Source of the DNA: Halorubellus sp. JP-L1
GTDB taxonomy: Archaea > Halobacteriota > Halobacteria > Halobacteriales > Natrialbaceae
Assembly: GCF_011440375.1 (NCBI RefSeq)
Contig: NZ_JAAOIR010000001.1
Coordinates: 744,001 to 808,000, forward strand
DNA length: 64,000 bases
Direction of reading: 5' to 3'
The position numbers and the translations under genes are program-made. Positions 43,398 through 47,489 of the stretch are shown in pieces. The stretch's first letter is position 1. Each line of letters opens with the position of its first letter. Below the pieces are notes generated by a model. It did no database searches, was not told the DNA's origin, and saw nothing but the letters and a program-made list of their open reading frames with translations.

Positions 43398-43416
43398 CGT
43401 CAGTGGATTGGTCCCA

Positions 43417-43424
43417 GGCCATAA
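43417..43424 (-). promoter_or_regulatory. TATA box of fen1
   Basis: CTTTATGG on the minus strand about 20-27 bases before the fen1 ATG predicts a leaderless transcript. Confidence 0.5.
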
Positions 43425-43528
43425 AGACGACCCGATCTGGGTGGTGGTCAACCGACCTCAAGTCATAGGACCGTAGTTAAGCCGCCCCATTTCCTAGAAA
43501 TATTATGCAACGAGAGAAAAATACACAA

Positions 43529-43540
43529 TTTTATAAATAT
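43529..43540 (+). promoter_or_regulatory. TATA region of the halocin-like gene
   Basis: The spacer from about 43485 to 43575 is far more AT-rich than the rest of the window. tttataaatatt centred 40 bases before the ATG is the best TATA box, with further A/T runs (taaaacttaaatata) next to it. The predicted start is about 15 bases before the ATG. Confidence 0.55.
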
Positions 43541-43574
43541 TAAAACTTAAATATACTAATAGTTTTTTCAATTG

Positions 43575-44348
43575 ATGTCGAATAAGAAAGATGGCACGGT
43601 GAATGCTTCGCGAAGGTCGCTCTTGAAATCAAGTGCTGCCAGCGCCGGTGTCATCGCGGCAAGTAGCATAGCGGTGAGCGCCGGTTCGAGCGAGGACGTC
43701 GAATCGGCACCCAACCTGGCAGATTACATCCGGGATCATGCTTCCGGCGTCCTATCCCATCTTCAGCGAGAGGATACCCTCGAGGAATTCGACGTCGACG
43801 TACATTCTCTCACTAACGAGGAGTGGGTGGCGGCAAATCGGAAGTCGCTAGACGCGTTCGAAGGCAGACAAGGCGTGGTCGTCACGAAACGATTCTCTGG
43901 GGGAGGATTCGTGACCCCGATTCAGGTAACCTTGACAAATGAAGATCGAAGAGGAGAGCTCGTTGTCGTGCCTGAAAAGGACAACACATACTTCATCGAA
44001 CAACCGCTTAAAGCACAAGCGACCATTCAAGTGCAAGACGGTGTAAAAAAGCATCAGACGGAGTACCGGTTCATCTCGGATGAAGAACAGGTGTCCACGA
44101 TGGTAGAATCCCAGCGCGAGAAGGACGTCCAGACGGAGAGAATCGGAACGCAGGAGGCCCGGATCCAGGGTTGCGTCATAGACATCTGTGCCGCTGGAAT
44201 CACTGGTCCTGACAGCGGAACCTGTGTGACCAAAAGGGTTTACTGCCCGGCCTGTACCGTCACCATTAGGAGTGGCTGTGGAAAGGATTGTAGCTTCAAC
44301 TCTGCTTGCACGCCATGGTGGGACCCCTGTGAGAGGTTCGGCTGCTGA
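43575..44348 (+). CDS. Halocin C8-like microhalocin precursor (Tat signal, Cys-rich C-terminus)
   Basis: A 257-aa secreted precursor. Residues 9-37 form a twin-arginine signal (ASRRSLLKSSAASAGVIAAS). Residues 38-199 are a soluble domain with no cysteine. The last 58 residues carry ten cysteines, at 200, 205, 217, 224, 227, 235, 239, 245, 252 and 257, ending CERFGC. Halocin C8 is made from a similar precursor: Tat signal, an immunity domain, then a C-terminal peptide with ten cysteines ending in a Cys. That suggests residues about 190-257 are the mature peptide and 38-190 an immunity/chaperone domain. Codon use (AGA, AGG, AAA, TTG) and GC content are unlike the neighbours. Exact family membership needs a profile search. 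Confidence 0.75.
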   Translation: MSNKKDGTVNASRRSLLKSSAASAGVIAASSIAVSAGSSEDVESAPNLADYIRDHASGVLSHLQREDTLEEFDVDVHSLTNEEWVAANRKSLDAFEGRQGVVVTKRFSGGGFVTPIQVTLTNEDRRGELVVVPEKDNTYFIEQPLKAQATIQVQDGVKKHQTEYRFISDEEQVSTMVESQREKDVQTERIGTQEARIQGCVIDICAAGITGPDSGTCVTKRVYCPACTVTIRSGCGKDCSFNSACTPWWDPCERFGC

Positions 44349-44360
44349 GAATACCTGTCG

Positions 44361-45668
44361 ATGAATCAGTTCGGAATTCTCAGTGTCTTGGTCCTCGTCG
44401 TGATAGCTGGCTGTACGGGGCCAGTGCAAGATACGGAGCGAGTGACAGTCGAATCCGAAAGGACGACCGAGGGATATTCGGAAGTAGATACTGCCACGAC
44501 AGACGGTGTGGATACGACTACGACCGGGGGAGTGGGTACGGAAACGACGGAGCACGAGCCGGGAGATGATGGACCGCTCGGGGTCAATGAAGGTGAACTA
44601 TTCAGTAACGTCAGAGCGCTCCTGTCGGTGGAGGCCACCAGGCCCTCCATCTTGGTGAGTCGGGAAGAGTCGCTCGGACCAGTGCGTGCGACGCCAGATC
44701 GGTTCGCGCGTGTCCTAGGCGTATCTAACGCGACGCGGGAGCAAGCGTCGCCGACGAGAGGACGAGCGAAACGGAATGGAGTGATCGAAGTTACTGTTAC
44801 GGAGGCATCGAGCCAACGCGACGTTCGAAGTCTGCTCGTTCACGAGTACGTACACTCGATTCAGTTCCAACTCGAGTCGTACGCGGCGGTCAGACGAGTC
44901 GGTGTGGAATCGTCGGCGGGTGCCGGCCAAACAGTTACAGAGGGTGCAGCCGTGTACCTGACCCAGCAGTACGCGGCGCAGTACGAAGGGGTCAGGAATC
45001 AGCAGGCGTCAGCCTGTGCGGCGTACGACGCCGGCGCTCCAGCGACGAAGCTCGACCTCAGTCCGTATTGCGTCGGTGCCCGGTACATCGATGACAGAAT
45101 CGATTCGCCAGAGGAGCTTACGGCTGTCTACGAGAGCCCACCGACGACGACGGAACAGATCCGGCACCGACTCGATCCGGGAACCGAACCCGCGCGTCCC
45201 CTGTCGGTCTCCCCCAGAGCAACCGACGAGTGGACGGTTACGAATGCGGGACTGCCGACTGGATTGCGCCGACAGGGAGAGCTCTGGACGTACGCAGTCC
45301 TGACAGCGTACCTATCCGACGAGCGCGCAGACCGTGCTGCAACCGGCTGGGGTAACGACACGGTCGTGAAATACGGGAACGGTTCCGAGACGAACCGGGT
45401 GTGGGTGACTCGATGGGACGACCCAGGCGAAGCGGACGAGTTCTCGTCCGCGATGCAAGCTCACATCGAGATGGCCGAGACGAACGCGACAACCGACGCC
45501 GCGTTCGAACTCGTCCGCGTCAACGAGACAGTCGTCGCGCTCGGCGCTGGCTCTGAGGCGTTCGTCGGCGATGCGTCCATCGTTATGGGTGAGGGAAGGG
45601 TCGTCGTCAGACCGCCGGACACACGAACGAACTCGACGGCTTCAGTCGTCGCACTTCGGACGCCGTAG
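44361..45668 (+). CDS. Secreted lipoprotein with HEYVH zinc-metalloprotease motif
   Basis: A 435-aa lipoprotein. The signal MNQFGILSVLVLVVIAGC has a lipobox cysteine at residue 18, then a Thr-rich linker to about 75. The zinc motif is H161-E162-Y-V-H165 and a third ligand is probably E194 in TVTEGAAVYL, the gluzincin arrangement (HExxH then E about 29 residues on). It lies 12 bases after the halocin-like gene on the same strand, so the two are almost certainly cotranscribed. A role in cleaving or releasing the peptide is inferred from this. The N-terminal part of the gene shares the lower GC of its partner. No named family is recognised. Confidence 0.8.
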   Translation: MNQFGILSVLVLVVIAGCTGPVQDTERVTVESERTTEGYSEVDTATTDGVDTTTTGGVGTETTEHEPGDDGPLGVNEGELFSNVRALLSVEATRPSILVSREESLGPVRATPDRFARVLGVSNATREQASPTRGRAKRNGVIEVTVTEASSQRDVRSLLVHEYVHSIQFQLESYAAVRRVGVESSAGAGQTVTEGAAVYLTQQYAAQYEGVRNQQASACAAYDAGAPATKLDLSPYCVGARYIDDRIDSPEELTAVYESPPTTTEQIRHRLDPGTEPARPLSVSPRATDEWTVTNAGLPTGLRRQGELWTYAVLTAYLSDERADRAATGWGNDTVVKYGNGSETNRVWVTRWDDPGEADEFSSAMQAHIEMAETNATTDAAFELVRVNETVVALGAGSEAFVGDASIVMGEGRVVVRPPDTRTNSTASVVALRTP

Positions 45669-45674
45669 AGGAAC

Positions 45675-46356
45675 TCATTCGTCGGCATTCAGGATTCCAT
45701 CGACTCGGATGTCGGCGTCGACGAGTGCGTCGCAGACGCGCGGGAGGTCGCAGTCGAGGACGTCGCGGGGGTCGAGGCGCGGGTCGAAGGCCGCGTCCGC
45801 GCTCGTCGCGCGGTCGCGCGGCGAGGTAATCTAGCGCGCACCGGGCCTCGTGGACGAACCAGCTCGCGACGTTCGCGCCGGCGTACGCCGCCTGCTGGCC
45901 GGTTCGCGAGTGCGCGTACACGCCCGACCCGTGGAAGACGGGGTGGACGCCGTCGTCGCTGGACTCGGAATCCTAGGTTTGCACGTTGCCGGGGTACTGG
46001 GTGCGTTCGTCCTGCCCGGGTGGGTCGACGATCAGGACGACGACGCCGTGACGGGCGAGTTCGACGCCGGTCAGCTAGTTCTGGCCGTCGGCCTTCGGGA
46101 ACGGGTGATGGCCGCCGCAGAGGACGACGGCGGGGTGCGGGCCGTCGCCGGCGGGGACGTAGCAGTTCGCGGTGACGTGGTAGTCGGGGAGGACCTCGAG
46201 CACAAGGCGTTCGAACGCTTCGAGGGAGTCGAGGTCGCGGGTCGCCGCTCGCTCGCGCTCGCACGCTTCGCTCGCGTGCGAGAGGAGATACTGGCTGAGT
46301 TGGTCGGCGACGTCGTGGTAGCCGTCGACGGCGTCGTCCAACCTCTCGACGGTCAT
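45675..46356 (-). pseudogene. Degraded esterase/alpha-beta-hydrolase gene
   Basis: Starting from MTVERLDDAVDGYHDVADQL the frame reads as an acetylxylan-esterase or dienelactone-hydrolase-like enzyme (CYVPAGDGPHPAVVLCGGHHP, later VVLIVDPPGQDERTQYPGN and YAGANVASWFVHEARCALDY). It is broken by an in-frame TAG after residue 93 and another about 36 codons on. A frameshift near 45800 moves the plausible C-terminus (ending DIRVDGILNADE) to another frame. The nucleophile region is missing. It converges with the lipoprotein gene, six bases away. No single frame is functional. Confidence 0.75.
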
Positions 46357-46510
46357 CGCCGCACCTCCGTCCCGCCCAGCGCGTCGGCGCGACTACGGTG
46401 TGTCGGGCGGCAGATCGGGGCGTGAGTCGCGTCGTCGGTCACGGTCCGAAGCCCACGGGCGACCGGCAAGAAACTCACGGGTGCACGGGGCTCTGTACCT
46501 CGCCCCGCGA

Positions 46511-46520
46511 GAATTATAAA
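46511..46520 (+). promoter_or_regulatory. TATA box of the SDR gene
   Basis: gaattataaa predicts a transcript start near 46540. This favours the ATG at 46555 over the one at 46528 as the start of the next gene. Confidence 0.5.
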
Positions 46521-46554
46521 CAAGATAATGCGTCGTCCGGCCGTAGAGACCCTC

Positions 46555-47418
46555 ATGGAAGCAGCAACGACGGGCCGAGTGGTCGTCCTCACGGGCGCGA
46601 ACGAGGGCATCGGCCGCGGGATGCTCGCGACGCTCCTCGAGGACGGGTACCGGGTCGCGGCGCTCGACGTCGACACGTCGAACCTCGACGCGTTCGCCGA
46701 CCAGTACGGCCAGCAACTCCGCGTCTACGAGTGCGACGTGACGAGCGACGAGGACGTCGAGTCGAGCGTCGCGGACGTCATGGACGCCTGGGGACGCATC
46801 GACGTGCTCGTGAACAACGCCGCGATATTCGAGTTCGGCCTGGTCCGCGACCGGTCGCTCTCGGACACCCGCGAGGAGTTCGAGGTGAACGTATTCGGGC
46901 CGCTCCGGCTCGTCCACGCCGTCCTCCCGCACATGCGCGAGCGCGGCGAGGGCAAGATCCACTTCGTGAGTTCGGGCGTCGGGCGCGTCGGGAACCCCGG
47001 ACTCACGGGGTACGGGGCGACGAAGGGTGCGCTGGAGGCGTACGCGCGCTCGCTCCGCCTCGAGCTCCAGCTCGAGTCCGTCACGTGCACCGTGATGCAT
47101 CCCGCGCTCGCGCGGACGCGAAGCGCCGTCGAGCTCGGGTACCCCGAATCCACGATGGACGACCCGGCCGACGTCGGGCGGAAGCTCGCGCGGAAGCTGG
47201 AGTCGACGAAGCCGGTCGTCTACGCCGACTGGAAGACGCGCATCGGTCTCGCGGTCGCCGAGCGGTTCCCCGGTCTCGTGAAGCGGGGGACGCGGCGGTT
47301 CCTCGACGCGCCGCCGACTCCGGACGGCGCGACGAGTGGAGCGGGGTCGGAGTCGCGTACGGCCGAAGACGAGTCCGCTACGAGTGCGCTTCATCCCGAC
47401 GACGAGTCGGCGACCTGA
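46555..47418 (+). CDS. Short-chain dehydrogenase/reductase (SDR)
   Basis: A 287-aa Rossmann oxidoreductase. The coenzyme motif is TGANEGIGRG near residue 14, followed by CDVTSDED, VLVNNAAIF, and the catalytic Ser and Tyr-x-x-x-Lys in SSGVGRVGNPGLTGYGATKG. A variable, acidic C-terminal tail of about 40 residues is probably disordered. Acidic residue after strand 2 (ALDVDTSN) hints at NAD(H) preference. Substrate unknown. It precedes the cystathionine enzyme gene by 71 bases on the same strand. Confidence 0.9.
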   Translation: MEAATTGRVVVLTGANEGIGRGMLATLLEDGYRVAALDVDTSNLDAFADQYGQQLRVYECDVTSDEDVESSVADVMDAWGRIDVLVNNAAIFEFGLVRDRSLSDTREEFEVNVFGPLRLVHAVLPHMRERGEGKIHFVSSGVGRVGNPGLTGYGATKGALEAYARSLRLELQLESVTCTVMHPALARTRSAVELGYPESTMDDPADVGRKLARKLESTKPVVYADWKTRIGLAVAERFPGLVKRGTRRFLDAPPTPDGATSGAGSESRTAEDESATSALHPDDESAT

Positions 47419-47489
47419 ACGACGAGCGGGGCGCCGCTGGCGGTTCGGGGAACGCAAGAGGTACCTGCGGGGCGCGCGACGCCTCTCGC

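Follow-up and report, generated by a model that had tools for sequence, protein, structure and literature searches.

A putative Tat-exported peptide precursor with a ten-cysteine tail represents a diverse haloarchaeal family apparently separate from halocin C8

In silico analysis of the window (the whole analysed stretch of DNA, 64,000 nucleotides) points to a gene for an exported cysteine-rich precursor which, on this evidence, is not a subfamily of halocin C8 and belongs instead to a family of its own, far larger and more varied. The reading we favour, with a probability only slightly above one half (about 0.52), is that the gene encodes a pre-pro-peptide: a Tat-exported precursor with a pro-domain, cleaved to a five-disulfide antagonistic peptide and served by a lipoprotein helper. 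The proposed sequence of events is as follows: (i) the precursor would leave the cell through the Tat pathway; (ii) the conserved cysteine-free middle would act as a pro-region, that is as chaperone, carrier and possibly self-protection; (iii) the C-terminal 58 residues would form five disulfides; (iv) proteolysis in the linker would free the tail as a 6 kDa disulfide-rich peptide; (v) the freed peptide would most likely act against related archaea as an antagonistic effector of the microhalocin type, and (vi) a membrane-anchored HExxH lipoprotein would probably aid maturation or self-protection. Antagonistic activity is suggested by the plan of the precursor, the diversity of the family, its copy number and the variable genomic site, and the role of the middle as a pro-region, possibly conferring immunity, by analogy with HalI, the corresponding part of the halocin C8 precursor.

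The features of the locus are listed in Table 1. Taken mechanically, the open reading frame begins at an in-frame TTG (43572), and the ATG at 43575 has been used as the gene start. The TATA-like element is located 36-45 nt 5' of this ATG, a placement that fits a leaderless haloarchaeal transcript. The initial annotation had described a Tat signal, a cysteine-free middle, ten cysteines within the last 58 residues in the spacing 4-11-6-2-7-3-5-6-4, and a terminal cysteine, all of which can be read from the sequence. The twin arginine corresponds to residues 13-14. The match of the protein to the Pfam model TAT_signal remains under the cut-off (E 0.016), and the arginine pair is invariant across the 84-member family alignment A4; export by the Tat pathway is well supported by these sequence features. 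The N-terminal part of the middle domain is probably helical, and its C-terminal part carries the family motif VVPEKDNTYFI.

Table 1. Coordinates of the features of the precursor locus (window numbering)
Feature	Coordinates	Strand	Description	Basis
TATA-like element tttataaata	43530..43539	+	putative function	sequence
Precursor coding sequence	43575..44348	+	257 aa plus stop	homologues found by search
Tat signal peptide	43575..43682	+	SRRSLLK; probable cleavage after AVSA36	sequence; family RR
Cysteine-free middle (putative pro-domain) and linker	43683..44153	+	conserved in the family	middle-profile searches; linker statistics
Candidate linker motif IGTQ	44142-44153	+	residues 190-193	linker statistics
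Cysteine-rich tail	44172..44345	+	residues 200-257; presumed mature disulfide-rich peptide	sequence; family even-cysteine rule
Hvo_1808-like lipoprotein	44361..45668	+		NF038145 sub-threshold match; motifs; recurrent adjacency
Variable segment between fen1 and metB	43402..47438			comparison with congener G239

A single-sequence search revealed one distant relative of the window protein (L002, 29% identity); a two-sequence profile found L038, and a three-sequence profile brought in remoter proteins built on the same plan. Alignments that included the signal (A1 and A2) yielded many Tat-only matches and were dropped for A3, a profile of seven relatives built on the middle domain alone, with signal and tail left out. 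Of the 392 genomes searched in the order, 60 contain matches to A3 at E ≤0.01. A single genome may have as many as eight copies, and these mostly carry different tails. Some of the weak matches (E 1e-4 to 1e-2) are uncertain, and the statistics given here rest on 87 precursors extracted from the loci of the stronger ones. The window protein, itself one of the seven profile rows, matches A3 at E 6e-42; it is also linked to the family independently, as a relative of L002 and L038, and it combines the A3 middle with a cysteine-rich tail of even count (ten cysteines), which is how the family is defined here. One further candidate relative, L003, proved spurious, being a lipoprotein reading frame that contains a stop.

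In the 84 aligned members, only the Tat signal is covered by a Pfam or NCBIfam family, and nothing resembling the middle or the tail was found among solved structures or family models. AlphaFold2 run on single sequences returned low-confidence models (pLDDT 34 and 36, the latter for the downstream lipoprotein). A draw of 266 genomes from the phylum gave no family match outside the order. Scans of genome contigs and viral contigs with short peptide patterns found no relative, as the members have diverged too far for such patterns to work. A tblastn search of a plasmid collection with the window protein likewise found none, and the same search with another member found only two, annotated as Halorussus "hypothetical proteins". 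The family is unnamed and has no Pfam or NCBIfam model; the literature consulted comprised open-access papers, and an earlier description may exist elsewhere.

Nearly all of the 87 precursors possess a Tat signal and a cysteine-rich C-terminus, and the middle is free of cysteine in all but a few. Since A3 was built without the tail, what is seen of the tail was found independently of the search. The retrieval of more than 80 homologues by a middle-only profile, nearly all with a cysteine-rich tail, shows that the window reading frame is not a chance one, and the same follows from purifying selection: in orthologous pairs the dN/dS of the tail is 0.06-0.36 and that of the middle is similar, as expected if both are functional protein. 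Paralogous tails diverge faster than their middles, with 60% identity in the middle vs 26% in the tail for the tandem pair of G123, and 64% vs 31% for L140 and L145. Together, paralogue divergence and orthologue dN/dS indicate that the tails are diversified yet functional peptides.

The tails extend over about 25 to 100 residues (median 51 from the first tail cysteine, 22% cysteine). The mature parts hold 4-22 cysteines in 73 different spacings among the 87 precursors. Of the 87 precursors, 84 have an even count (binomial p 7e-22, a guide only, the sequences being related), as do 71 of the 73 distinct frameworks. Such a rule points strongly to full disulfide pairing outside the cell, and the tails of the family are thus very probably disulfide-bonded. 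A common core motif of the tails, found in 60 of 84 vs 41 of 84 shuffled tails, is a modest excess and is not claimed. The tails of L125 (3824-4489), L165 (3771-4475) and L172 (3766-4458) contain 18-22 cysteines in 68-75 residues, a metallothionein-like density.

These three tails, with their CxC and CxxC runs, are what favours a reading of the tails as metal-binding, metallothionein-like extracellular chelators. We regard this reading as distinctly improbable, because an even cysteine number in 84 of 87 precursors is expected of disulfides and not of metal clusters, the window tail has neither CxC nor histidine and only one CxxC, and Tat export leads to the oxidising outside.

The initial annotation had assigned the protein to halocin C8 (HalC8) as a possible distinct subfamily. 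The plan of the two precursors is indeed the same: in ProC8/HalI (P83716), as in the window precursor, a Tat signal for export and a cysteine-free middle precede a C-terminal domain with ten cysteines that ends in cysteine, and the C-terminal product is known to be cut out of ProC8. It is on this plan, the equal cysteine number and the shared terminal residue that membership of the halocin C8 family would rest. The NCBIfam model of the halocin C8-like domain, TIGR04449 (halocin_C8_dom), has been used as the membership test. Mature HalC8, the control, matches it at E 1e-16, whereas the window protein gives no match up to E 10, and neither does L002 or any of the 84 aligned members. A profile comparison (hhalign) of the two families without the signal gave a probability of 0.8% over 19 columns for the middle domains and of 0.06% for the tails; a first hhalign match of 92.7% was an artefact of the Tat signal and disappeared once the signal had been removed. 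An HMM of HalC8 tails scores at most 2.4 bits on the family tails, compared with at least 57 on its own members. With no sequence relation detectable in middle or tail, the likeness is one of plan only, and the view of the window protein as an ordinary member or subfamily of TIGR04449 is strongly disfavoured by these comparisons.

The two families also differ in where conservation lies. HalC8 tails are hydrophobic and better conserved than the HalC8 middle, whereas in the new family the middle is common and the tails are more polar and fall into 73 frameworks. The window peptide had been noted as less hydrophobic than HalC8, and this is borne out by the GRAVY values of the tails (0.19 vs 0.95). 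On average the family tails are acidic, with a net charge of -5 (0 in the window), and not very hydrophobic, unlike HalC8, which counts against an antagonistic peptide. When 391 genomes of the class were searched with the HalC8 peptide, 31 gave a match, one of the matches being identical to it over 76 residues. The precursor of this match is 283 aa long and its mature part begins at residue 208, in agreement with the description of ProC8 as a protein of 283 aa whose last 76 aa are mature HalC8 (PMC11509114). Genomes G356, G295 and G192 encode two or three different HalC8-type precursors apiece.

The release of the tail is suggested by the linker. Within the 18 residues that precede the first cysteine of the tail, 20 of 87 precursors have the motif [VIA][TS][TIPVAS][QE], with 2.9 expected from shuffles. 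In HalC8 the cut follows SNAAPTPA, and in its orthologues VTPA or VTTQ occupies the corresponding position; a V/P-T-x-[AQ]-like sequence before the cysteine domain is therefore found both in HalC8 and in several members of the new family. This suggests a processing signal common to the two, through which the tail would be released from the precursor. Against cleavage stands the presence of the motif in only about a quarter of the members; the window candidate, IGTQ, is weak and is separated from the first cysteine by six residues.

The protein might instead stay uncut, either at the surface or released whole, with the tail as a domain that is stabilised by disulfides and serves in binding, adhesion or redox reactions, and with paralogues that differ in ligand. 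Such a role would agree with the nearly constant occurrence of middle and tail together and with the majority of members in which a clear cleavage motif is missing. Nevertheless, tails of some 25-100 residues in 73 frameworks on a kept middle fit an exchangeable product better, and the window protein shows neither a membrane anchor nor a motif for attachment to the surface, so that we consider an uncut protein unlikely, while leaving it a real share of the probability.

The second gene of the locus starts 12 bp downstream of the precursor, and the two likely form one operon. Its product carries a lipobox (VIAGC18) and matches the NCBIfam model NF038145 at E 1.7e-24 and 86.9 bits, below the cut-off of 200; judged by sequence, it is a divergent homologue of the Hvo_1808 family, with which it has the lipobox and HExxH in common. 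The zincin motif, HExxH with a downstream glutamate ligand, is intact in the sequence, as HEYVH (44841-44855) followed by EGAAVY (model pLDDT 36), and several metallopeptidase families match weakly near HEYVH. All that has been shown for canonical Hvo_1808 is that it is a lipoprotein associated with the cell (PMC2945643). The canonical type is present in 20 of 20 genomes tested, whereas the type found here is a divergent paralogue linked to cysteine-rich precursors. We know of no function assigned to the Hvo_1808-like family, for which the adjacency offers a candidate role.

Lipoproteins of this kind adjoin family precursors at eight of 83 loci (L006, which is the window, and L119, L142, L153, L134, L137, L171 and L173); at L119 they flank a tandem precursor pair on both sides. 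With about one to seven homologues per genome in twenty genomes, only about 0.2 adjacencies are expected by chance (about 5 copies, 3,700 genes, 166 neighbour slots). Counting L134, L171 and L173 as one lineage leaves six independent adjacencies, for which our own Poisson estimate is near 1e-7. From this recurrence, the lipoprotein is a candidate maturation peptidase or immunity partner. The neighbours at L134 (2653-3816), L171 (4609-5760) and L173 (2511-3740) have degenerate zincin sites: HELNH, HELSD or HELSS, with NGVSxY in place of EGxxxY, so that the second histidine or the glutamate is lost. They are possibly pseudo-enzymes kept beside the precursors, and the role of the lipoprotein may accordingly be binding or protection rather than, or besides, cutting. 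These degenerate sites, together with the 75 loci that have no such neighbour, count against the reading favoured here.

Disulfide-rich scaffolds commonly act as protease inhibitors or signalling peptides, and the peptide could be one of these, with the HExxH lipoprotein as its target or receptor. A zincin-like lipoprotein as a recurrent neighbour, three times with a degenerate active site, would suit such a pairing. It is nonetheless improbable in our view, given that the lipoprotein neighbour is absent at 75 of the 83 loci and that a genome with many differing tails is easier to reconcile with antagonism than with signalling.

The genomic setting bears on the antagonistic pre-pro-peptide as well. 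The precursor gene had been described as differing in base composition from every neighbour. Its GC content is in fact low (54.8%, compared with 68.6% in fen1 upstream and 68-70% further downstream, about 69% in the genes on either side), but so is that of the gene after it (44361-45668), at 61.5%, and the atypical stretch therefore spans two genes. Across the family, 73 of the 87 genes are poorer in GC than the genes next to them (p 2e-11), and the upstream sequence has 46% GC. In G239, the one congener compared, the fen1 protein is 90% identical and the gap between fen1 and metB is about 0.94 kb long, with a methyltransferase-like ORF, vs 4.0 kb in the window. The cassette is thus replaced in G239 and occupies a variable site in the window; its absence there, together with the composition, supports the transfer that had been proposed. 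Nothing convincing was found in a search for repeats at the cassette ends.

On a wider view, we tentatively see in the family, at somewhat less than even odds, a haloarchaeal arsenal in which one Tat-exported pro-domain carries dozens of cysteine frameworks, in AT-rich and at least sometimes variable cassettes, partly with a dedicated membrane-anchored zincin that would serve maturation or self-protection. Such an architecture, with several precursors per genome, would be built like that of animal venom and defensin precursors (e.g. conotoxins), which also combine a conserved signal and pro-region with diverse disulfide-rich C-terminal peptides in paralogue arrays; this is an analogy only, without homology. 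Halocin H4 and HFX_0892 (HapP) of Haloferax mediterranei are secreted precursors switched on by extracellular proteolysis (PMC12893001). They differ in that their activator is a serine protease, the halolysin HlyR4. Neither has, to our knowledge, been described as disulfide-rich. Few archaeal antimicrobial peptides are known to us at the sequence level, HalC8 being the best described. The family, which has at least 87 members in the one order sampled and some 73 disulfide frameworks, would be a large candidate set of archaeal peptide effectors. It could also be used to test whether the bacteriocins of haloarchaea have a pro-domain immunity design in common.

Some minor observations concern the neighbouring genes. 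An ABC transporter adjoins the precursor at 18 loci; this gene class is abundant, hence no link is claimed. A 93-aa ORF on the reverse strand inside the variable segment (46075-46356) has no Pfam match and resembles the beginning of a hydrolase gene that has been truncated or frameshifted. The lipoprotein has HExxH-bearing homologues in G373 and G435 that adjoin another type of Tat precursor, also with ten cysteines (L208, 2483-3145, and L209, 2313-3188, both on the reverse strand). These two precursors, which give no match to TIGR04449, represent a third kind, with a hydrophobic ten-cysteine tail (LLPCGPCLPNLNC...PAPLC).
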